A stretch of 64,000 nt of DNA, taken from assembly GCF_001517625.2 (NCBI RefSeq), contig NZ_LN999828.1, forward strand, positions 62,001 through 126,000, given 5' to 3'. The stretch comes from Clostridium sp. AT4. Its GTDB lineage: Bacteria; Bacillota; Clostridia; Lachnospirales; Lachnospiraceae. This document shows, one piece after another, positions 17-32,114 of the stretch (the first letter of the stretch is position 1; every line of letters begins with the position of its first letter). The translations under genes were made by a program, and so were the position numbers. The notes beneath the pieces are model-generated. The model was not told the DNA's origin. It saw nothing but the letters and a program-made list of their open reading frames with translations, and searched no databases.

Positions 17-1633
17 TTGTGTCCGAGTGACAGAATGATGGAGGAAAACATTTCTCTAACTGCCTATGAAATGGAACTGTATGAGGAGCCGATTCGTGAC
101 AGTTTGAAACAGGCAGAACTTCTTGGAGAAAACAATCGGAAGCTGTGGCAATATTTCAGTGGTGAAATACAGATGCCCAATATCCGATCGTTGTCTCTGG
201 AAGTAGAATCCTATGGAGGTCGGATTTGGAGTGTGCTGCAGGCAGAATCGTTTGAGAAACTAACCCATGAAGAGGTGCAGCGTCTGTCAGAGACATGGGA
301 GAAACTTACCGTTGGAGGTTTTATAAAGGAACTGAGGGGGAATCAAGTTCCAGTCTCGGAAGGAACACTTACGGCTCTTCTGGGGAATGAAGGGCTGGAT
401 TATTTTGTCCTTCCGGAAAAAGTATTAAAAGGGACCGCCCATTTGCTGACTCCGGCATTGGAAGTCGAAATTTTTTCTAAGAGGCAAATTTCAGAAGTTG
501 GCTATTCTGGAGCAAATATAACTTTGCCGACAGAAGATTCCTTTTTAAGAGATACAATGCGTAGGGCTTATGTGGATGAAAATGAAGCATATAGGATTGA
601 ATTTTGTGGCAGATGGCCTGATTTTCTGGTAGATGCACTGAATCAGACAGGAAGCATTACATTGGAAGAAGCAAATGTGTTGGCGTATTTGGTCAGCTAT
701 ATGGACACACTTCAGATGGAAACCTATGAAGCAGCCATTCAGATGCGGCAGGAAGAAAAGATTGATGTTCCACCTACAATAAAAGAACTGATCAACCTTT
801 GCTATAACCTGGATTGTTATGAGTTCCGGCCGGGGATCAGGAATGATCGGGAACTGGGGGAAGTCTGCCTGGATGGAGGAATTTCTGATTGGATTGACAG
901 GCTTTCAGATGATGTGGTGGAGCTTTTGGATCCAGAGAAGGTAGGGATGGAGCAGCGACGGGAAGAACAAGGGGTTTTTACATCAAAAGGCTATGCATTT
1001 CCAAATGCACGCTCCAGGCAGGACATGTATGATGGAAAACACTTGCCGGATATCAGCGGTATTTCTGAGGGGATTTTTTCGCTTCGGATAGTCAGTACCC
1101 AGCATCCGGAGGAGACAGGAGTCTGGCTGGAACTTCCTGCTACAGAACGCGAGTTTCAATGGACGCTTAATGCATTACAGGAAAGAAACTTTAAAGATTG
1201 TATCATAGCAGAAGGCCGTAGTCCCATCAGCTGGTGTGATCTGGAGGCAGATGAAGATATTGAAAAGCTGAATGAACTGGCGAAACGGATTCAGAATTTT
1301 CCAGATAACAGAATGCATTGTAAATATGCGGCAGCATTGGAACTGGAAAGTTGTGATGGACTGGATTTGGCATTGGATATTGCAGAAAATCTGGATTGTT
1401 ATGATTTCGATCCTCATATCTATTCTCCTAAAACGTATGGAAATTATATTCTGCAGGAAGCGGGGGTTGATCTGCAGGATCCTGCATTTTTAAATTTTCA
1501 TTTTTATGGGTATGGATTACGACAATTGGGCAAGGCAGGACATGTATGTACCACATATGGTGTGATCCGGAGAAATGAGATTCCGTTTCAGCATGAGTAT
1601 ACGGCGCTGCAGCCTGGAATGAAGATGGAATAA
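17..1633 (+). CDS. ArdA-like antirestriction domain protein, possibly 5'-partial
   Basis: A long acidic protein (up to 538 aa). The C-terminal half (roughly residues 350-470) has the look of an ArdA-type antirestriction domain: acidic, with a segment around NFKDCIIAEGRSP and repeated LNELAKRI-like helices. ArdA proteins mimic DNA and inhibit type I restriction enzymes, protecting incoming conjugative DNA. The function of the N-terminal half is not recognised. The frame is open to the left window edge. The TTG at 17 is poorly spaced from the GGGAG just before it, and ATG codons at 35 and 38 are alternatives, so the true start may lie outside the window. The following adenine methylase fits an early establishment module. 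The family call is from overall resemblance and is moderate. Confidence 0.6.
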   Translation: MCPSDRMMEENISLTAYEMELYEEPIRDSLKQAELLGENNRKLWQYFSGEIQMPNIRSLSLEVESYGGRIWSVLQAESFEKLTHEEVQRLSETWEKLTVGGFIKELRGNQVPVSEGTLTALLGNEGLDYFVLPEKVLKGTAHLLTPALEVEIFSKRQISEVGYSGANITLPTEDSFLRDTMRRAYVDENEAYRIEFCGRWPDFLVDALNQTGSITLEEANVLAYLVSYMDTLQMETYEAAIQMRQEEKIDVPPTIKELINLCYNLDCYEFRPGIRNDRELGEVCLDGGISDWIDRLSDDVVELLDPEKVGMEQRREEQGVFTSKGYAFPNARSRQDMYDGKHLPDISGISEGIFSLRIVSTQHPEETGVWLELPATEREFQWTLNALQERNFKDCIIAEGRSPISWCDLEADEDIEKLNELAKRIQNFPDNRMHCKYAAALELESCDGLDLALDIAENLDCYDFDPHIYSPKTYGNYILQEAGVDLQDPAFLNFHFYGYGLRQLGKAGHVCTTYGVIRRNEIPFQHEYTALQPGMKME

Positions 1634-1725
1634 GCAGAATAAACGAGAGAAGAAGGTGATGAAGAATCAACAGTTTTATTTCATGGGTTGGCGGAAAGAA
1701 AGCACTCCGTAGCCTGATCTATACC

Positions 1726-2646
1726 ATGTTCCCTGCAAATTTTGACCGCTACATTGAAGTGTTTGGCGGCGGAGGCTGGGTCCTTTTTGGGAAGCCACCG
1801 GATGAACGGTGCATGGAGATCTACAATGACTATAATTCAAACCTTGCAAACCTGTTTTATTGCGTGAAGAACCGTACAGGGGCTTTCTTAAAGGAACTGG
1901 GATTTTTGCCTTTAAACAGCAGGGATGAATTTACTATCATTCGTAATTTTATCGACAAGCAGGAACCGGATACCCGCTTTTTAGGAGAGGAGTTAAAACT
2001 GGCAGAGAAGTATCTGATGCCGCCGGATTATAAGGAGCTGAAAGCAATCCTGCTTCAAAATGCAGAGGTAACGGATGTAAAACGGGCGGCTGCATTTTTT
2101 AAGCTGATCCGTTACAGTTATGGAAGCGGCTGCACGTCCTTTGGCTGCCGTCCCTTTGATGTGAGAAATTGCTTTGACACCATCTGGCAGGCATCCCGCA
2201 GGCTGGCAGATACCGTAATAGAAAATAAAGACTTTGAGGCATTGATTCGGCAGTATGACCGGGACAGTGCCTTTTTTTATTGCGATCCGCCTTACTACGA
2301 AACGGAAGGACACTATGCGGTGGTGTTTCGGAAGGAAGATCACAAACGGCTCCGGGATACCCTTGCAGAATGTAAGGGCAAGTGGATGGTCAGCTACAAT
2401 GACTGTGCGTTTATCCGGGATCTGTATGATGGATATTTTATTACAGCTGTTACCCGTATCAATAACCTGGCCCAGCGGTATGAGGGGGGCTGCGAGTTCC
2501 CGGAAGTCATCATTACTAACTATGATCCAGGCGAGCGGGAACGGTTACGACCAAGACAGCTGGATCTGTTTGGCATATGGGGAGACGGGGAAACCGACCA
2601 TTATGAGATTCGGGCAGAAGTCAGCCCGGAAAGAGAGGTGCTATGA
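1726..2646 (+). CDS. DNA adenine (N6) methyltransferase, D12 class, 5' end damaged
   Basis: Dam-type N6-adenine methyltransferase that would protect the element's DNA or alter host expression. FGGGGWVLFGKPP near the start is the SAM-binding region and YCDPPYYET (about residues 185-193) is the catalytic DPPY motif. The first ATG of this frame is at 1726. However, the frame is open back to 1663 and encodes WVGGKKALR at 1684-1710, the conserved first motif of the family, without any ATG, GTG or TTG. A well-placed ATG at 1659 after GAGAGAAGAAGG lies in another frame that ends at a TAG at 1711. A small deletion between 1665 and 1672 would explain this. The gene may be inactive, or the sequence may hold an error. 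Its end overlaps the next start (ATGA). Confidence 0.85.
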   Translation: MFPANFDRYIEVFGGGGWVLFGKPPDERCMEIYNDYNSNLANLFYCVKNRTGAFLKELGFLPLNSRDEFTIIRNFIDKQEPDTRFLGEELKLAEKYLMPPDYKELKAILLQNAEVTDVKRAAAFFKLIRYSYGSGCTSFGCRPFDVRNCFDTIWQASRRLADTVIENKDFEALIRQYDRDSAFFYCDPPYYETEGHYAVVFRKEDHKRLRDTLAECKGKWMVSYNDCAFIRDLYDGYFITAVTRINNLAQRYEGGCEFPEVIITNYDPGERERLRPRQLDLFGIWGDGETDHYEIRAEVSPEREVL

Positions 2647-2906
2647 AAACAGAAGAAAAAAAGGGGGCAAACACCGTGGATCCGGGGGAAGGCGGCGTAC
2701 TTTCCATTCCGAGGGTGCTTTTATCGGCGGCGGGGATCCCAACGGACGGCAACCTGGTGATTGAGACGGTTCCCGGTGTCATTCTGATTGGAACGAAAAC
2801 CCCGGTGCAGATGGTTTGCAGGCCCCTGATGGAGGTATTTGACCAGCTGGGGATTGCAGAGAATGAAGTGGAGGCATTGATGGGAAGAAAAGGAGGGATT
2901 GGATGA
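2643..2906 (+). CDS. small AbrB-like protein
   Basis: An 87 aa protein whose centre (GVLSIPRVLLSAAGIPTDGN followed by a beta-rich IETVPGVILIG) resembles an AbrB/SpoVT swapped-hairpin DNA-binding fold, though less clearly than its downstream neighbour. The start overlaps the methylase stop by four bases (ATGA) and its stop overlaps the next start in the same way, so translation of the three genes is probably coupled. It may pair with the next AbrB protein as a heterodimeric regulator or act as an antitoxin-like element. Function is inferred only. Confidence 0.6.
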   Translation: MKTEEKKGANTVDPGEGGVLSIPRVLLSAAGIPTDGNLVIETVPGVILIGTKTPVQMVCRPLMEVFDQLGIAENEVEALMGRKGGIG

Positions 2907-3181
2907 GCAAACCGGTTTATCGGCTGATGGATGGAAAAGGGCGTGTGCTGATCCCCAAGGCAATGCGGGATGCAGCAAAGATGGATTACGGGGATATTGT
3001 CTGTCTGGGAATGACAGACGGTAAGATAACCGTCCGGAAGGTACATGTCATTGAAGTAGGCGACCAGTCACCGGAAGCAGTGGAATCCTACGTCCGTGCA
3101 GCGTTTCAGTCCATGCCGGACAGCTTGCGGCTGGAATTGATAGGGGAACTGAGCAGCCTGCTTCAGAAAAAGGAGGATTAG
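2903..3181 (+). CDS. AbrB/SpoVT-type DNA-binding regulator
   Basis: A 92 aa protein with a clear SpoVT-AbrB swapped-hairpin domain at the N-terminus (MDGKGRVLIPKAMRDAAKM, then a beta strand region GDIVCLGMTDGKITVRK). Such proteins bind DNA as dimers and act as transition-state or antitoxin regulators. The C-terminal helix (residues 55-90) is probably an oligomerisation region. It is translationally coupled to the preceding AbrB-like gene (ATGA overlap) and ends nine bases after an AGGAGG that serves the next gene. A role in controlling element genes is inferred from position. Confidence 0.85.
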   Translation: MSKPVYRLMDGKGRVLIPKAMRDAAKMDYGDIVCLGMTDGKITVRKVHVIEVGDQSPEAVESYVRAAFQSMPDSLRLELIGELSSLLQKKED

Positions 3182-3184
3182 ATC

Positions 3185-3745
3185 ATGCAGGAGTTTACGA
3201 AAAAGGATTGTGTAGGGATAGGGGAGGAGGTTTCTCTTAAAAGCCGGGTGGTTGTCCTGGCTCCCAGGGCACTGCCGGGGAACCATCCGGGACAGCTCTT
3301 TTTCTGCACGGGTGTCCAGGGGACGGAAAATCCAAGGCATTCCATTGCCCAGCTGGTATCTCTGTCTACTGGAGAAGTATGGAAGTGCTGGCATCGGGAT
3401 GTGATCGGCATCCTGAAACCGGAGTTGCTGGGAGAAACGGCCAGACTTCAGCTGTCCCAGATCCGTCCTTTTGGTGCAAAGGATCTTCGGGAACATTCAC
3501 CGGAATATTCCGGTTACAGTTTTCTGCCGGATGGCCGGTATGCGGCAGGCGTGTGGCTGGCAGATCCGGAGGAGGCATGGGAGTATGTAATGATGCAGAA
3601 GGACTATCAGCACCGGATCATGATCTGTGACAGGGATGACTTTGCCGTCTTAGAGATGCAGGAAGGACAGATGCTCTTTCCGGATGTACAGACCCTGGAG
3701 GAGTTTCGACAGACGCAAGGGCATGGGGGGATTCGGATGGCTTAG
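3185..3745 (+). CDS. hypothetical protein of conjugative element
   Basis: A 186 aa soluble protein that I do not recognise. It begins with a beta-rich segment (EEVSLKSRVVVLAPRALP) and contains a central GEVWKCWHRDVIGIL stretch; there is no signal peptide or membrane segment. The start at 3185 is well supported by GGAGG ending nine bases upstream inside the previous gene. It sits in the same operon as the AbrB and YodL genes. A role in element maintenance is likely, but no activity can be assigned. Confidence 0.7.
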   Translation: MQEFTKKDCVGIGEEVSLKSRVVVLAPRALPGNHPGQLFFCTGVQGTENPRHSIAQLVSLSTGEVWKCWHRDVIGILKPELLGETARLQLSQIRPFGAKDLREHSPEYSGYSFLPDGRYAAGVWLADPEEAWEYVMMQKDYQHRIMICDRDDFAVLEMQEGQMLFPDVQTLEEFRQTQGHGGIRMA

Positions 3746-3761
3746 AAAAGAGGGATGAGAC

Positions 3762-4322
3762 ATGAAGCAGATTCGGATTGAGAATGGGATCATCCTGTAT
3801 TACGGAAACCGGGCCGGGCGGGTAACGAAAGGCTGTGCCGTAGTGGATCCGATGTTTCAGGGATCAGAGCTGGAGGGCTTTTTAAGAAAGCAAACGAGTA
3901 TTCAGGAAATCCAGTGGAAGGACAGGATTTTCGACCGGCTGACAGCTGGGGCTGTGGCTCCGGAAATATCCCAGGGATTAAAAGATGTGCGGGTCTGGCA
4001 GCTGAAAGGGGATGTGGATGTCCAAAGGAAGTTCATTGACTTTGCCCTGCTGGTTCATCAGTACGGCCCGCCCCAGCCGGAGCATTATATGAAAGTCTAT
4101 GAAGGGGCATCTGACACCAATGACCTGGAAGAACTGTATGATAAATTCCGCTATCACCCGCCATCCGGATATACCGGGCATGGGCTGTCCATCAGTGATG
4201 TATTGGAACTCTATGATGAAACCGGGAGTTCCTTTTTTTATGTGGACCGCTATGATTTCCAGGAAATAGAGTTTTCTGGGAAGAGCCAGAATCAGGGACA
4301 GACCCCGACTATGCAGTATTAA
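3762..4322 (+). CDS. YodL-domain protein
   Basis: A 186 aa soluble protein. The C-terminal third (YHPPSGYTGHGLSISDVLEL, then FFYVDRYDFQEIEF) matches the pattern I know as the YodL domain, common in Firmicute conjugative elements and of unknown biochemical role. The N-terminal part has a short beta-rich region. It is preceded by AGAGGGATGAGAC and follows the previous gene by 16 bases, so it belongs to the same operon. No catalytic residues can be identified. Confidence 0.7.
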   Translation: MKQIRIENGIILYYGNRAGRVTKGCAVVDPMFQGSELEGFLRKQTSIQEIQWKDRIFDRLTAGAVAPEISQGLKDVRVWQLKGDVDVQRKFIDFALLVHQYGPPQPEHYMKVYEGASDTNDLEELYDKFRYHPPSGYTGHGLSISDVLELYDETGSSFFYVDRYDFQEIEFSGKSQNQGQTPTMQY

Positions 4323-16207: not shown

Positions 16208-17110
16208 TTGTTTATCTGGGATTTTGTCGCTGATACGGTGTTAGGACAGATCATTGACTGGCTGTATGGACAGATTGTAGGTTTTTTGGGAGACTTTTTC
16301 ATGCAGATGGGAAGTATGGGAGCTGATCTGTTTGAGATGAGCTGGGTGCGGTCCATTGTTCTGTTCTTTTCTTATCTGGCATGGGCACTTTATGTAACTG
16401 GGATTGTGGTGGCAGCTTTTGAGTGCGGAATTGAGTATCAGAACGGCCGCGGCAGTATCCGGGACACTGCCTTAAATGTGATCAAAGGTTTTCTGGCAGT
16501 AAGTCTGTTTAGCGTTGTCCCAGTAGAGCTTTATAAGCTCAGTGTTTCCCTTCAGGGAAGTTTTACTGCAGGGATTACGGGGCTTGGAAAAGATATCGGG
16601 ACAGTAGCATCCGAGATCATCCAATCCTTAAAGGATACGGCTACCTGGCAGGATGCGGCCACATCGGGAATTTTTGGAGGACTGGGAAGTATCACCAGTC
16701 CTATTTTCATGATCTTTCTCCTGATTATGATGGGGTATGCAGTGATCAAGGTGTTTTTTGCCAACCTGAAGAGAGGAGGCATCCTTTTGATCCAGATTGC
16801 GGTGGGTAGTCTTTATTTATTCAGTGTGCCGAGGGGATATATTGATGGGTTTGTTGGCTGGTGCAAACAGGTAATTGGTCTGTGTCTGACCGCATTTTTG
16901 CAGGCAACGGTTTTGATTGCGGGGTTGATGGTTGTTAAGGATCAGGCCCTGCTTGGCTTGGGGCTTATGCTGTCAGCGGGAGAGATTCCACGGATTGCAG
17001 GCCAGTTTGGGCTGGAAACAGGAACAAAGGCCAATGTCATGGGAGCGGTCTATGCAGCACAGGGAGCCGTCAATCTGACAAGAACCGTTGTGCAGGTGGT
17101 TTCCAAATAG
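16208..17110 (+). CDS. VirB6/TrbL-like conjugation channel protein
   Basis: A 300 aa polytopic membrane protein with about six to seven hydrophobic segments, including SIVLFFSYLAWALYVTGIVV, NVIKGFLAVSLFSVVPVELY and SPIFMIFLLIMMGYAVIKVF. The long periplasmic-type loop with SGIFGGLGSI after segment three, and the final GAVYAAQGAVNLTRTV tail, resemble the VirB6/TrbL-like proteins of Firmicute conjugative elements. Such proteins form part of the mating channel. It begins at TTG 16208, with AAAGAGGTGATGAG in front. Confidence 0.75.
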   Translation: MFIWDFVADTVLGQIIDWLYGQIVGFLGDFFMQMGSMGADLFEMSWVRSIVLFFSYLAWALYVTGIVVAAFECGIEYQNGRGSIRDTALNVIKGFLAVSLFSVVPVELYKLSVSLQGSFTAGITGLGKDIGTVASEIIQSLKDTATWQDAATSGIFGGLGSITSPIFMIFLLIMMGYAVIKVFFANLKRGGILLIQIAVGSLYLFSVPRGYIDGFVGWCKQVIGLCLTAFLQATVLIAGLMVVKDQALLGLGLMLSAGEIPRIAGQFGLETGTKANVMGAVYAAQGAVNLTRTVVQVVSK

Positions 17111-17127
17111 AGAGAGGACGGTGAAGA

Positions 17128-17502
17128 ATGGAACACAACAAACTGGTATATATTGCATCTCCCTATTCTGGAGATGTAGAGCGGAATGTAGCATTTGCAA
17201 AGGCAGCCTGTCGTTATGCCATGAAGCAGGGGGTTACGCCCATTGCCTCCCATCTGTTATATCCGCAGATGTTGGATGATAAAGTACCGGAAGAGAGAAA
17301 TCTTGGAACAGGTATGGGACTTCGAATCCTAAAAGTGTGTGATGAGATTTGGGTGTGTGGAAATGAACTGTCCTCGGGGATGGAGCAGGAGATCCGTGCG
17401 GCAAGACGGTTTCGGATTCCGCTTAGGCGGGTCAGTGAGCAGGAGATTGGATGGGGGCTGTGTGAAGCACCGGTACAGAAGGGAATGGAGATGGGCGGAT
17501 GA
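17128..17502 (+). CDS. DUF4406 family (nucleoside deoxyribosyltransferase-like) protein
   Basis: A 124 aa protein with KLVYIASPYSGDVERNVAFA at the start and DEIWVCGNELSSGMEQEIRAA in the middle, the pattern of DUF4406 proteins, which share the nucleoside 2-deoxyribosyltransferase-like fold (SPYSG nucleotide-binding loop, and SSGM-E near the catalytic Glu). It may act on nucleotides or be a sensor. Its ATG follows GAGAGAGGACGG, and its end overlaps the cytosine methylase start by four bases. Confidence 0.8.
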   Translation: MEHNKLVYIASPYSGDVERNVAFAKAACRYAMKQGVTPIASHLLYPQMLDDKVPEERNLGTGMGLRILKVCDEIWVCGNELSSGMEQEIRAARRFRIPLRRVSEQEIGWGLCEAPVQKGMEMGG

Positions 17503-19105
17503 TGACACTGGGCAGCCTGTTTGACGGGATTGGAGGATTCCCCCTGGCGGCAGTCCACTGCGGGATCGTGCCAGTATGGGCCAGTGAGATCGAATCGTTT
17601 CCCATGAGAGTAACGCAGCTCCGGTTTCCCGAAATGATCCATGTAGGGGATATCACAAAACTGGATGGTGCAAAGTTGCTGCCTGTGGATGTGATCTGTG
17701 GAGGCAGTCCCTGTCAGTAGCAGGACTTCGGAAAGGGCTGGCGGGAGAACGTTCCGGACTCTTTATGGATCAGGTGCGTATTGTAAAGGAGATGAGAGCA
17801 GAGAATGAAAGACGAGGGATATCAGATGACCTTGTTCGACCTCGATACCTCGTTTGGGAAAATGTCCCCGGAGCATTCAGCTCCGCAAACGGGGAAGACT
17901 TCCGGGCGGTCATCGAGGAGATCGTCCGCATTAAGGAATGTACCTGTCATGTGCCTCGACCTGACACCGGGAGCTGGGAACCTGCTGGGGCTGCCATTCT
18001 GGGAGATAGGTTCAGCCTGGCTTGGAGAGTCCTGGATGCTCAATACTGGGGAGTCGCCCAGCGTCGCCGTAGGATCTTCCTTGTCGCAGATTTTGGAGGA
18101 CTCACCGCACCCAAAATATTATTTGAGCAGGAACGCCTGCTTGGGGATCTTGCGGAGAGCCAAGGCCAGAGGAAAGGAACTGCCGCCGCAGTTGGAAACA
18201 GCCCTCCAGATTCAGGCTGGTGTGGAGCAGAAAAGGAAAGACAGGTGAATTTTTATATACTTTCCATGGAAACGGCAGAAAAGAAAGAGGTGTGTTTGTG
18301 TCTCAATGACCAAGGCGGCGAGCGGATGGATGTTTCTATCAATGTGACTGCCACACTGCGGGCGGGGATGAGCGGTCATCCTCCTCTGGTGATGGGCAGC
18401 CAGCAGGGAAATGCGGGGATTGGTGTGGATCTGTGTCCGACTCTTACAGAGGCGGCAGGAACCAGCGGGAATAATCAGCCGATCCTGTTTGAGAATCATG
18501 GAATTGATGCCAGATATACGGGACCGCATGAGGTGGCACCAACCATGTCTGCACGGTATGGGACTGGCGGCAATAATGTTCCTTTGGTCTCGGAAATACC
18601 AGAGAGTTACTGTATTGCCGGCAACATCATTGACAGGGAGGTGCAGAACGGCGGAAATGGTCTGGGATGTCAGGCAGACATTTCTTATACCCTGACTAGT
18701 GCAGACCGCCATGCGGTGTTCAGCCGGCAGAGAAGCGATGAATTCTTAGAAAACAAGGTAACAGCAACCCAGAGTACCAGACAGCATAAGGATGCCATGG
18801 ATCTGGTGTGTGAACCCTATCAGGATACAGTAGGGACCATTGGGTATACGGATCATAAGGGGATCAACAACCAGTATGTCAGTGAAGACAAATGCATTGT
18901 GGAGAAGCGGAAGCTGATCCGGCGGCTGACCCCTTTGGAATGTGAACGGCTTCAGGGATTCCCGGATCATTGGACGGACATCCCCGGAGCATCTGACAGT
19001 GCCAGATATAAAGCGTTAGGAAACAGTGTAGCGATTCCATGTGTGGATTTTATTCTCCGTGGCATCGCTTATTTTTTACAGCAGATGAAGGGGGATAATC
19101 CCTAA
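17499..19105 (+). pseudogene. cytosine-5 DNA methyltransferase split by a frameshift after the catalytic PCQ
   Basis: A Dcm-type C5-cytosine methylase in two frames. 17499-17720 has motif I (GSLFDGIGGFPLA) and the catalytic GGSPCQ, then TAG at 17718. From 17711 another frame continues with LSVAGLRKGLAGERSGLF and on through ENVPGAF (motif IV), QRRRRIF (motif VIII), a target-recognition region, RRLTPLECERLQGFPD (motif IX) and KALGNSVA (motif X) to 19105. Restoring GAC and one extra CTGTCAG copy between 17717 and 17718 (10 bases) would join them as PCQDLSVAGL. The protein is probably inactive unless frameshifting occurs. A second gene overlaps it at 17805-18248. Confidence 0.85.
17805..18248 (+). 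CDS. overprinted ORF inside the cytosine methylase gene
   Basis: A 147 aa frame, +1 to the methylase frame, within its motif IV-VIII coding region. The sequence does not look random: MTLFDLDTSFGKMSPEHSAP, a Ser-rich middle, and SLSQILEDSPHPKYYLSRNA followed by CLGILRRAKARGKELPPQLE. From memory, these blocks match hypothetical proteins seen in Firmicute phages and elements, overlapping or next to cytosine methylases. The ATG at 17826 is preceded by CGAGGGATATCAG and begins exactly at the MTLFDLDT block, so it may be the real start; 17805 is the first ATG. Function unknown. Confidence 0.6.
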   Translation: MKDEGYQMTLFDLDTSFGKMSPEHSAPQTGKTSGRSSRRSSALRNVPVMCLDLTPGAGNLLGLPFWEIGSAWLGESWMLNTGESPSVAVGSSLSQILEDSPHPKYYLSRNACLGILRRAKARGKELPPQLETALQIQAGVEQKRKDR

Positions 19106-19215
19106 CATTAGTGGTTCTGCTCCAGTTTTAAGGCAATCTTTGTTGGGTATCGCCCTGGCTATCTCATCTCTTTGTGGATATACTTGGCTTGTAAAAATGA
19201 GGAAAGGAGATCGTA

Positions 19216-22318: not shown

Positions 22319-23362
22319 ATGGAGTTAAAGGAGCAGAAATTTGGCATTGAGATTGAGATGACCGGCATCACCCGTGCGAAAGCGGCAGAAGTAACAGCAG
22401 GGTATTTTGGAACCAGAGTGAAATATCTGGGAACCTATTATGACACTTATGCAGCCATTGACACAGAAGGGCGTCAGTGGAAGTTTATGAGCGACAGCAG
22501 CATAACCGCACAGCAGAAATTGAATGGAAGAAAGATAAGTGCGGGAAGAGAATACCGGACGGAGATGGTAAGTCCCATCTGTCGTTATGAGGATATTGTG
22601 ACGATTCAGGAGATCATCCGAAAGCTGAAAGAATACGGTGCCCTGACGAACGGAAGCTGCGGGATCCATGTGCATATCAATGTGGAACCGTTTGATGCAA
22701 GAACCCTCCGAAATATCACCAATATTATGGCATCCAAGGAAGATCTGATTTATAAAGCCCTGGGAGTGTCTGTGGAACGGCAGCACCAATGGTGCCAGCC
22801 AGTGGAACAGAGGTTTTTGGATGAGTTAAATCGGAGAAAGCCAAGAAGCATGGAAGCTGTAGAGCGGATCTGGTACAACGGAGAGAGCCGGAGGAATGCA
22901 CATTATGATGATAGCCGTTATCATTGTCTGAACCTTCATTCTGTCTTTCAAAAAGGAACGGTAGAATTCCGCCTGTTCAACGGGACGCTCCATGCAGGTA
23001 AGATTAAGGCGTATATTCAATTTTGTCTGGCGATTGGTGCTCAGGCTCTTAACCAGTCCTGTGCCAGCAGAAGAAAGACACAGACCACGAATGAGAAATA
23101 CACCTTCCGCACCTGGCTGCTGCGGCTGGGACTGAATGGAGAAGAATTCGCTACAGCCCGTCAACATCTGCTGGCGAATCTCCCAGGGTGCATTGCCTGG
23201 AGGGATCCGGCTCAGGCGGAAGCTCAAAAGGAACGGATGCGGCAGAAGAGAGAAAAAGAACTGGAGGAGCGGAGCCAGAGACAGGAACCTATTTCTCCAA
23301 CTGGAGAACCAGAATCGGCCGGGGAGGCAGAAGAACCCCCGGCTTTTATGATGCGAATGTGA
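22319..23362 (+). CDS. amidoligase family enzyme
   Basis: A 347 aa protein with the signature of the COOH-NH2 amidoligase family (glutamine synthetase-like fold): FGIEIEMTGITRAKAAEVTA at the start, EMVSPICRYED, and NGSCGIHVHINVEPFDARTL with its metal-binding His-x-His. These enzymes join carboxyl and amino groups of peptides or small metabolites using ATP. The C-terminal 60 residues are Glu/Arg-rich and low in complexity. It is followed 14 bases later by a gamma-glutamylcyclotransferase gene, a pairing known for this family in mobile elements. The substrate is unknown. Confidence 0.85.
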   Translation: MELKEQKFGIEIEMTGITRAKAAEVTAGYFGTRVKYLGTYYDTYAAIDTEGRQWKFMSDSSITAQQKLNGRKISAGREYRTEMVSPICRYEDIVTIQEIIRKLKEYGALTNGSCGIHVHINVEPFDARTLRNITNIMASKEDLIYKALGVSVERQHQWCQPVEQRFLDELNRRKPRSMEAVERIWYNGESRRNAHYDDSRYHCLNLHSVFQKGTVEFRLFNGTLHAGKIKAYIQFCLAIGAQALNQSCASRRKTQTTNEKYTFRTWLLRLGLNGEEFATARQHLLANLPGCIAWRDPAQAEAQKERMRQKREKELEERSQRQEPISPTGEPESAGEAEEPPAFMMRM

Positions 23363-29237: not shown

Positions 29238-32114
29238 ATGGCAAAACTTATTTTTACTTCCCGATATTTAAAAGATGCAAAACCATCTCAGAAAGAAAAT
29301 TATGTCCATTACATTGGAACGCGGAAAGGGGTAGAGAAAATTGATACAAGTAAAAAGCACCTCCCAGCAACGGTGAGTCAAAAGAAGTTAGTGCATCAGC
29401 TCCTGCAGGATTTTCCGGCGACAAAAGAAATGCTGGAGTATGAAGATTATCAAAGAAAACCAACAATCGAAAATGCCTCGGAATTTATTTCCTGTGTATT
29501 GGAACAAAATCTTGATATAGCAGCGACGCGAAAAAATTATGTGGATTATCTGGCGCATCGTCCCCGTGTAGAAAAGATTGGTGAGCATGGTCTGTTTACA
29601 GATGAGGGAGAACCGATGGTTCTTGGACAGGTGCAGAATCAAGTGGCAGATCACAAGGGAATTGTGTGGACCCATGTGATTTCCCTTCGGCGCGAGGATG
29701 CAGCCCGGTTAGGGTATGACAGTGCTGTTCAGTGGATGGCATTGCTGCGTTCCAAACGGGCAATGCTGTGTAAGCATATGAAAATTGACAGCGCCAATCT
29801 GAAATGGTACGCTGCATTTCATAATGAAAGCCATCATCCCCATGTTCATCTATTGGTGTACTCAGTAAAAGATGGAGAAGGGTATCTGACAAAGCAGTCG
29901 ATTGAGGCCATGCGTTCTGAGCTGGCGCATGATATTTTCCGTCAGGATTTTGCAAATATTTATGAGGAACAGGCGCAGTCTCGTATGGATTTAAAGGAAC
30001 GGTCGGAAGTTGTAATGAAGACATGGATAGATGAAATACGGGCGGGGACGCTTAAGAGTTCGGAAATTGAAACCAGTATGATGCAGCTTTCTAAACGGCT
30101 GCAAAATACAGGTGGGAAAAAGGTTTATGGCTACCTGAAGAGAGATGTGAAGGATCTGGTCGATCACATCGTAGACGAGTTGGAGAAAGATGACCGGGTG
30201 TCTGCCCTGTACCGGGAATGGGGGCTATGGGAGGATGAGATTGTGAAGACCTACCGAAAACAGACGGAAGAATTACCGCCTTTATCAAAACAGCCTAAAT
30301 TAAAAAGTATCAAAAATATGGTGATTGCAGAAGCATTGAGGCTTGGCAGTCATCATTTTTTGTTTGAAGAGAATGAAGATGGATACTCAGAACCAAAGGA
30401 CGATTTTTTTATACAAGAACCAGATCCGGTAGCAGAGCTGACAGGGGAACTAGATTCGGACTATGCGGTGGAGGAAGTCAAGCAAGAGCTTTTTCCTAAT
30501 GGCAGAAAAGAAAAATCCAGTTCCAATTGGTGGACAGATGGATATATACAGGCTAGGAATTATTTGTATGGCAGCGATTCTACATTGCAGGATTTTGAAA
30601 AGGCATATCAGAAGTTCCTTCAGGAAGCAGAGCAGGGGAATGGGTTTGCCATGCACGACCTTGGTCGAATGTTTGCGGATGGCTTGGGACGGGATGCGGA
30701 TGTGGGGCTGGCACAGAAATGGTATGAGAAAGCATTGGAAGCATTTCTTGTAAGAGAAGAATCCGTAAAGAAAAAGGAGAAACCATATCTGCAATATCGT
30801 ATTGGGAAAATGTATGCTTCTGGTTTGGGAGCAGAACAAAATTATGAAAAGGCGGCACACTGGTTTTCTCAGGCGGCTGCAATGGATCATAAGTATGCCC
30901 AGTATTCTCTGGCTGGGCTTTACCGGCGGGGCCGGGGGGTGGAGCAAAATGATATACGGGCGTTTTCTCTATATATGAGTTCAGCAGAGCAGGGGAATCC
31001 TTATGCCAGCCTGGAACTGGCGAAGATGTATAGGGATGGTTTTGGTACAGAGCCGGATTTACAGCAGGCAGAGTGGAGATTTCAGAATGCGTATTCCGGT
31101 TTTGTGGTTCTGGAAGAAAAAAGTCATGATGATAAACTCCAGTACCGGATTGGTCAGATGCTTCATACTGGAACGGGAACCAGCAAAGATGATGAGGGGG
31201 CGGCCAGGTATTGGGAAAAGTCTGCAAAGCTGGGGAATATCAATGCTCAGTATGCACTTGGAACACTCTGGCTGGAAACGGGAAGTGGAGACAGCGGCCA
31301 GGCAGTGGAATGGCTTACAAAAGCAGCAAATGCAGAGCACTCAGCCGCCCAGTATGTGTTGGGGAAATTATACCAGGATGGTGTGTATTTTAATAAAGAT
31401 ATGGATCAGGCCATGAAATGGTTCCGCTCTGCAGCAGAACTTGGAAATGAATATGCTGCATATCGGATGGGATGTTTGTTGCTTTTGGGGGAGGAAATAC
31501 CGAAGGATGTGGAAGCGGCTGTGAAGTGGCTCAGCCTGTCAGCGGAAAAAGGAAATCCATATGCGCAGTATCGGCTTGGAATGCTATATCTCAAGGGGGA
31601 AGAGTTTTCTCCTCAAGTGGAAGTGGCAATGAAATGGCTTCAACAGGCAGCGGAGCAGAAAAATGAATGGGCCTTTTATCAGTTAGGGAAGTTATATCTT
31701 TCAGGAGAACATGTAACGAAAAATGTGGAAACAGCAGTACATTACCTGGGACTATGTGCGGAAAAAGGAAACCAGTATGCTCAGTATGTGTTGGGAAAGT
31801 TATATCTCTGTGGCAGAGATGTTTCCCGTGATCGGGAAAAGGCAGTGGAATATCTGACAGCATCGGCAGAACAAGGAAATCTGTATGCCAGTTTTTTACT
31901 GGAACATCTGGATGCATATCAGGATCCGTCCTTGTTTCTGGCAGCAACCAGACTGCTTCATCATCTGGAAAAGCTGTTTTGCGAAGAAGTACAGAGACCA
32001 ATGGAAATGAAGCGGTATCAGATTGATCGAAAACGTCGGTGGAAGCTGGCAGAGAAAAAGCAGGCTCAGGGATACAAACGGGATGATCGGGAGCCGGTAC
32101 AAGGCAGTTACTGA
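29238..32114 (+). CDS. MobP-type relaxase fused to Sel1-like repeats
   Basis: A 958 aa protein. The N-terminal 330 residues are a MobP3-like relaxase that nicks and leads DNA at oriT. The metal-binding histidine motif is HNESHHPHVHLLVYS near residues 195-209; Tyr-containing motif FTSRYL lies near the start. From about residue 430 to 895 follow about twelve Sel1/TPR-like repeats of 36-40 residues (for example GNPYAQYRLGMLYLKGEEFS). Sel1 repeats normally bind proteins. A relaxase with this tail is unusual; the tail may recruit the coupling protein or a chaperone. AAAAGGAG precedes the ATG. Confidence 0.85.
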   Translation: MAKLIFTSRYLKDAKPSQKENYVHYIGTRKGVEKIDTSKKHLPATVSQKKLVHQLLQDFPATKEMLEYEDYQRKPTIENASEFISCVLEQNLDIAATRKNYVDYLAHRPRVEKIGEHGLFTDEGEPMVLGQVQNQVADHKGIVWTHVISLRREDAARLGYDSAVQWMALLRSKRAMLCKHMKIDSANLKWYAAFHNESHHPHVHLLVYSVKDGEGYLTKQSIEAMRSELAHDIFRQDFANIYEEQAQSRMDLKERSEVVMKTWIDEIRAGTLKSSEIETSMMQLSKRLQNTGGKKVYGYLKRDVKDLVDHIVDELEKDDRVSALYREWGLWEDEIVKTYRKQTEELPPLSKQPKLKSIKNMVIAEALRLGSHHFLFEENEDGYSEPKDDFFIQEPDPVAELTGELDSDYAVEEVKQELFPNGRKEKSSSNWWTDGYIQARNYLYGSDSTLQDFEKAYQKFLQEAEQGNGFAMHDLGRMFADGLGRDADVGLAQKWYEKALEAFLVREESVKKKEKPYLQYRIGKMYASGLGAEQNYEKAAHWFSQAAAMDHKYAQYSLAGLYRRGRGVEQNDIRAFSLYMSSAEQGNPYASLELAKMYRDGFGTEPDLQQAEWRFQNAYSGFVVLEEKSHDDKLQYRIGQMLHTGTGTSKDDEGAARYWEKSAKLGNINAQYALGTLWLETGSGDSGQAVEWLTKAANAEHSAAQYVLGKLYQDGVYFNKDMDQAMKWFRSAAELGNEYAAYRMGCLLLLGEEIPKDVEAAVKWLSLSAEKGNPYAQYRLGMLYLKGEEFSPQVEVAMKWLQQAAEQKNEWAFYQLGKLYLSGEHVTKNVETAVHYLGLCAEKGNQYAQYVLGKLYLCGRDVSRDREKAVEYLTASAEQGNLYASFLLEHLDAYQDPSLFLAATRLLHHLEKLFCEEVQRPMEMKRYQIDRKRRWKLAEKKQAQGYKRDDREPVQGSY

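Follow-up and report, generated by a model that had tools for sequence, protein, structure and literature searches.

Within the window, by which we mean the whole 64,000-nucleotide stretch that was analysed, an open reading frame (ORF) is nested in a gene for a C5-cytosine methyltransferase (MTase). It lies at +1 relative to the MTase frame, and the host frame was identified by its match to PF00145. The features of the locus are given in Table 1, in which the C5 MTase motif numbers (IV, VIII, IX and X) are those that we presume to apply at these positions.

Table 1. Features at the overprinted locus, in window coordinates
Feature	Position	Strand	Details
Upstream gene, DUF7768, 3' end overlapping the MTase start	17128..17502	+	124 aa
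MTase N-terminal piece, motif I to PCQ, in a different frame	17499..17720	+	
MTase frame, motifs IV-X, stop to stop, first ATG 17765	17588..19105	+	PF00145
In-frame stop directly 5' of the ORF start	17793..17795	+	sequence
Overprinted ORF	17805..18248	+	147 aa (140 aa from ATG 17826), TGA stop included
GAGGGA, ribosome-binding-site-like, 6 bases 5' of ATG 17826	17814..17819	+	
ORF N-terminal block SFGKMSPEHS, on MTase motif IV DNA	17850..17879	+	
MTase motif IV, ENV, under the ORF	17858-17866	+	
MTase motif VIII, QRRRR, overlapped by the ORF	18059..18073	+	
Conserved ORF core LSQILE..KYYLS..ACLGILRRA..GKELPPQL	18081..18194	+	predicted helices
MTase motif IX region RRLTPLEC, in the MTase frame, outside the ORF	18920..18943	+	
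MTase motif X, GNS	19019-19027	+	

A first-pass annotation of this DNA had described a 147-codon +1 frame inside the methylase, with its own start at 17826 behind CGAGGGA and an overlap with motifs IV-VIII. The frame was found with the amino acid blocks quoted for it, the ATG and the GAGGGA were confirmed, and the overlap ran from ENV to QRRRR and on for about 55 codons past motif VIII. The ORF has two candidate ATG starts, and it is the second (17826) that is preceded by GAGGGA. The in-frame stop immediately upstream argues against read-in from farther upstream in the ORF frame. Absent from the first-pass annotation was a frame break near 17720, close to the PCQ motif, which splits the window MTase. 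Relatives L089, L091, L092, L093 and L099 have a continuous MTase frame, and that of L090 is broken elsewhere, farther downstream. The window MTase is probably damaged and the nested ORF intact.

Other genes of the window encode TrbL, a MobL relaxase and a T4SS coupling protein, with serine recombinase genes 34 kb off; on the strength of these genes, the DNA is probably a conjugative element. The MobL relaxase (window 29238-32114) carries five Sel1-repeat stretches at its C-terminus. An Amidoligase_2 gene (window 22319-23362) lies near the MTase, as an amidoligase gene also does in Terrisporobacter phage TPDSL_ph1 (L006 3936-4664). Between the ORF stop and motif IX (window ~18300-18900) there are repeated units, such as NHGIDARYTGPH..PT.SAR.GTGGNN.PLV, and similar units occur downstream of the ORF core in loci L016 and L290. 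Multi-target phage methylases have repeated units of this kind in the corresponding region.

Distribution of the ORF and its linkage to methylase genes

When the ORF was searched with tblastn (E <= 1e-5), it matched 118 of 50,697 phage records and 526 of 72,556 plasmid records, P1 included. Hosts of the phages with copies include Escherichia (P1), Mycobacterium, Streptococcus and gut bacteria. In each of seven annotated phage loci (P1, Cronobacter, Mycobacterium, Streptococcus, Terrisporobacter, Ruminococcus and Faecalibacterium), the match falls within the MTase gene in a +1 frame that is open for 134-168 codons between stops, and none of these seven records, P1 among them, annotates the ORF as a feature.

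A long MTase frame with QRRxR ran across the ORF in 87 of 88 loci. Profile HMMs placed the ORF at +1 on an MTase match in all seven phage loci, in 79 of the 80 loci of a first viral set (kept out of at least 600 matches), in 15/15 genus-to-order relatives and in 47/47 genome contigs. The same arrangement was seen in 75 of 80 viral loci fetched by their MTase (four had no ORF match and one was relocated) and in 27 of 28 loci of a phylum sample, the remaining one being a canonical MTase (L287) with the match in frame. In a few of the loci with the ORF on an MTase, the MTase frame is split. In 61 related genomes, 15 of 16 ORF matches overlapped a PF00145 match and one lay between two PF00145 pieces; among the 30 best PF00145 loci of these genomes, one (L213) carried the ORF. 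No ORF was found away from an MTase gene among the loci examined.

Genome contigs with the ORF were mostly from Pseudomonadota. Single loci from Ignavibacteriota and Verrucomicrobiota both came from metagenome-assembled genomes. The methylase of the former (L222, a Stygiobacter assembly) is near-identical to the Terasakiella and Phaeospirillum copies, and this locus may represent a recent transfer or a mis-binned contig.

Openness, start signals and selection in the +1 frame

To avoid circularity, loci for the test of openness were chosen by the MTase C-terminus alone: 80 viral loci were fetched with 63 C-terminal residues of the MTase that lie outside the ORF. Stop counts in loci found by the ORF itself are circular and were left out of the evidence. 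Ten of the 80 loci were dropped as they had no recognisable ENV...QRRxR pair, leaving 70 that were usable. As these are relatives of the window's own MTase, the results speak for that group and not for all phage MTases. The null was synonymous re-coding of the MTase frame, with 100,000 simulations for openness and 20 nulls per locus for bit scores.

The +1 frame matched the ORF HMM in 70/70 loci and was fully open in 64, compared to 7.9 expected from re-coding (maximum 22 in 100,000 simulations). The +2 frame was open in only one of the 70. Mean ORF HMM scores were 121.3 bits for the real sequences and 34.6 bits for the re-coded ones, and the real sequence beat the best of its 20 nulls in 69/70 loci. 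Six loci fell short of fully open (L104, L106, L110, L112, L121 and L176), among them a relocated case (L104) and a frame junction (L121). Sequence in common with the HMM training loci was present in eight of the 70, and there were some near-copies; once both were removed, an independent subset of 55 remained, in which 50 were open, scores were 116.9 versus 31.7 bits, and all 55 stood above their own nulls. Cellular MTases, of which 14 of 30 were testable, were open in +1 in 0/14 cases and gave no ORF HMM match.

Start signals were assessed in 68 loci. An ATG with a 5-base Shine-Dalgarno match was present in 23, compared to 2.6 expected (maximum 11 in 100,000). When every start codon with a match of 4 bases was accepted, the count was 52, compared to 18.2 expected. 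The ATG plus 5-base site was lacking in 45/68 loci, and even the loosest start signal tested in 16/68. By these counts, the start signals of the ORF exceed both chance and the level imposed by the MTase, and we infer that the ORF is translated.

A test for reduced synonymous change, which the first-pass annotation had suggested, was performed on 64 non-redundant loci. Given the same MTase amino acid, the excess of identical codons was 1.06 upstream of the ORF, 1.33 in the N-terminal overlap, 1.50 across motifs VII-VIII and 2.23 in the core, and it returned to 1.03 past the ORF stop. Differences at MTase codon positions 1/2/3 were also compared in 225 moderately related pairs, and amounted to.265/.190/.578 upstream,.475/.324/.313 in the core and.477/.389/.673 downstream. 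In the core, ORF position 3 is thus the most variable and ORF position 2 the least, with the reverse in the flanks; the wobble position in the core belongs to the ORF. Amino acid identity in the core was 0.598 in the ORF frame, 0.412 in the MTase frame and 0.371 in the third frame, whereas the MTase frame was ahead in the other four regions compared. Constraint therefore flips to the +1 frame over the C-terminal core and is normal again after the ORF stop. The overprinted ORF explains why the MTase stretch past motif VIII conforms to the codons of another frame.

The first-pass annotation had held that stop codons in close homologues, together with a lack of amino acid conservation, would speak against a second gene, and the comparison turned out the other way, with the frame open and the core better kept in the ORF frame than in the MTase frame. 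Two marks of an alternative-frame gene were thus observed, a frame open beyond the level forced by the MTase and selection on its +1 amino acids. As far as sequence comparison can tell, the ORF is almost certainly a conserved protein gene.

Likeness to a methylase segment, and relocated or joined forms

Some canonical C5 MTases carry a segment after motif VIII, for example 'PLKKVLEKHVPEKYYFSAKAVQGML' in L314. Its pattern is LxxILE..V..KYYLS..., followed by a helix, and it is located between motif VIII and the target-recognition domain, starting about 31-35 residues past motif VIII in the four MTases in which its position was assigned. An HMM of this segment was made from seven MTases, picked by eye among 27 because they carry it. 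At a threshold of >=5 bits it matched 58/70 ORFs, compared to 26/1400 re-coded nulls, 1/1400 shuffles and 0/70 reversed sequences; in the independent subset, the figures were 45/55 ORFs and 23/1100 re-coded nulls. Alignment of the ORF core with the canonical segment by hhalign gave 95.9% over 29 columns. Part of the likeness (LSQILE) sits on motif VIII DNA, which the re-coded null controls for and does not remove. In sequence, the ORF core resembles the segment beyond chance and beyond the letters imposed by the MTase. At the same threshold, the segment was detected in 1/70 of the overprinted MTase chains and in 8/27 canonical MTases, seven of these eight being the training set; the other 19 scored below it.

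The segment of L320 matched two solved cytosine-specific MTases, 3lx6 and 3me5. We take these to be Dcm, and the segment-carrying MTases to be Dcm-type. Such enzymes carry the segment resembling the ORF core in one chain, and differ from the ORF system in that they use a single frame with no overprinting seen. The predicted structure of the ORF product was confident only for about residues 91-130 (pTM 0.40), with helices at 102-115 and 121-130, and a fold search of this short helical core against the PDB gave no significant match. Searches of Pfam, NCBIfam and PDB sequences with the ORF returned no family of its own. Methylase families of Pfam and PADLOC matched two or three of 99 ORF members, in which the ORF frame presumably runs into the MTase frame. 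A hidden HNH homing element was rejected, as no HNH family was among the Pfam matches of the 99 members.

Two copies of the stretch are present in L016 (with L104, L289 and L344 on the same contig) and in L290, a phage contig from human faeces. The first copy holds the MTase motifs up to VIII and then ends. In the second, the ORF core is retained, the other two frames are both interrupted by stops, and the core continues in frame into the MTase C-half. Faint remnants of the lost frame persist in each copy of L016 (17.7 and 14.0 bits). Between L016 and L290, the relocated core differs by 0.26/0.20/0.59 per codon position over 104 codons; relieved of the overlap, it evolves as a normal conserved protein gene. 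The N-terminal block GKMSPEHS is missing from both relocated copies, and for this reason the ORF block SFGKMSPEHS is probably imposed for the most part by the MTase frame. In L290, about 3.4 kb (400-3839) separate two methylase N-half pieces, and this interval matched no Rfam family at the gathering score.

In L275 and L359, the nested ORF reads directly into the C-half and the MTase N-half stops after motif VIII; these could be recent frameshifts. With the ORF core joined to the MTase C-half in L016/L290, L275 and L359, the enzyme is encoded as two polypeptides, and the split falls between motif VIII and the recognition domain. At four other loci (L009, L082, L121 and L178), the methylase N-half passes in frame into the ORF frame, a junction that may stem from drift, sequencing error or frameshifting. 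A hunt for further relocated copies gave, among the matches listed, L290 and otherwise the same contig as L016. Of the 24 loci L345-L368, 22 were ordinary overlaps; the other two were L359 and L363. The L016 protein also had two weak matches (L311 and L312), which were dropped, as neither HMM matched them.

In an MTase tree, L016 and L275 were nested inside the overprinted group on different branches (L290 and L359 were not included), so that the relocated and joined forms look derived. The 55 overprinted and 27 canonical rows of the MTase tree fell on two sides (100/100, with the bootstrap not fully settled), in columns that include the overlap; in a tree on 85 columns before the overlap (54 overprinted and 27 canonical rows, some on very long branches), the label needs two changes, not one. 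A single origin of the overprinted ORF appears likely.

A possible accessory subunit and its alternatives

The first-pass annotation had proposed a conserved accessory product of phage methylases. Conservation was found as described above; an accessory role is suggested indirectly, by linkage to the MTase in the loci examined, fusion to its C-half and likeness to one of its segments. We lean, with modest confidence, towards an overprinted accessory subunit that supplies the post-motif-VIII segment in trans. The +1 ORF would then be a protein gene overprinted on a group of C5-cytosine MTases of phages and mobile elements, with its C-terminal core as the counterpart of the segment found in some MTases between motif VIII and the target-recognition domain. 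The MTase chain, reading the same DNA in the other frame, would have an unrelated spacer in the place of this segment, and the ORF product would dock on the MTase as a separate small subunit and supply the hinge segment. Under such a scheme, the ORF would be translated, the two proteins would bind, the segment would act in trans, and the ORF would be needed for methylation or would tune it. The conservation of the ORF, its start signals, its linkage to the MTase, the likeness to the segment and the fusions to the C-half all favor a two-chain enzyme of this kind. More tentatively, and with confidence somewhat short of even, we propose that a piece of the enzyme was moved into another frame of its own gene, the hinge segment having become an overprinted subunit from P1 to gut phages, and that duplication or joining to the C-half undid the overlap in some lineages, giving natural two-chain methylases.

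The ORF product might instead be an independent protein of the phage or element, for example one that binds DNA or counters restriction, and be overprinted by happenstance. Its arginine- and lysine-rich helical core and its start signals would suit such a protein, and no library family reveals a function. That it was not found away from the MTase gene in the loci examined, that it resembles an MTase segment and that it is joined to the MTase C-half in L016/L290, L275 and L359 all count against happenstance, and we think this reading unlikely. Likeness to the segment and linkage to the MTase apply equally to a decoy or brake, which would mimic the hinge segment, compete for its docking and limit methylation, for example until packaging; a small product made from inside the MTase message would also give a built-in ratio. 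The MTase chain, however, scores below 5 bits for the segment in 69/70 loci, which leaves little to compete with, and a core joined to the C-half (L016, L290, L275, L359) is more in keeping with a structural part than with an inhibitor. We regard a brake as distinctly unlikely.

If ribosomes reached the ORF frame by frameshifting, a fraction of the MTase would contain the canonical segment in cis, and the order would be the canonical one of motif VIII, segment and recognition domain. The MTase-to-ORF junctions of L009, L082, L121 and L178 and the ORF-to-MTase junctions of L275 and L359 are compatible with this. Yet start and ribosome-binding sites exceed the level imposed by the MTase, the window has a near in-frame stop upstream of the ORF, and a full canonical chain would need two shifts, which makes frameshifting improbable. 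Highly improbable is a constraint on the nucleic acid (RNA structure or a binding site), or a by-product of MTase conservation, with no second protein: the codon-position pattern, the protein identity, the start signals and the relocated single-frame copies contradict it, nothing positive speaks in its favor, and a search of window 16800-19200 gave no Rfam match at E up to 0.1.

In M.EcoHK31I, the small chain is reportedly read from an alternative frame within the gene of the large one. If so, the principle is known, and the ORF system would be a different and wider variant of it. M.EcoHK31I is described in a passage of one source as a C5 MTase of two polypeptides, the small chain holding motif IX only (PMC3404938). 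Here, in contrast, the motif IX region belongs to the MTase frame and lies beyond the ORF, and the ORF holds the post-motif-VIII segment, so that it is not a small chain of the M.EcoHK31I type; this distinction is drawn by description, not by sequence comparison. According to the same source, M.AquI is a C5 MTase in two chains, divided within the variable region that follows motif VIII (PMC3404938). L016, L290, L275 and L359 are split in the same region, but the usual loci consist of a continuous MTase plus an added ORF, with one MTase frame running across it, and are not of the M.AquI type. By that account, too, complementation between M.SssI fragments is best with a C-fragment that begins between motif VIII and the recognition domain (PMC3404938). 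This is the place where the derived two-chain forms are split, which supports a subunit.

An out-of-frame protein inside a phage methylase gene is likewise described for the ShiLan type, which, in the part of the source concerned, is an HNH homing endonuclease inserted in a mycobacteriophage methylase, hidden and patchy in its spread (PMC11855218). By that account, the ShiLan type is an insertion, whereas the ORF has no HNH match and overlies conserved motifs. No description of the ORF/MTase overlap was found in open-licence literature. To our knowledge, long overlaps between two genes on the same strand are seldom conserved so widely in bacteria or large phages. If the ORF product is indeed a subunit, an MTase of this group that is re-coded into a single frame for expression would be missing a component, with a bearing on methylase cloning, the interpretation of methylomes and the design of split methylases.

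PHROG 16143, named 'DNA methyltransferase', matched 59 of the 99 members of the ORF alignment. This family seems to consist of, or to include, the overprinted protein, and databases and some phage annotations probably hold the ORF protein under a borrowed methylase name.
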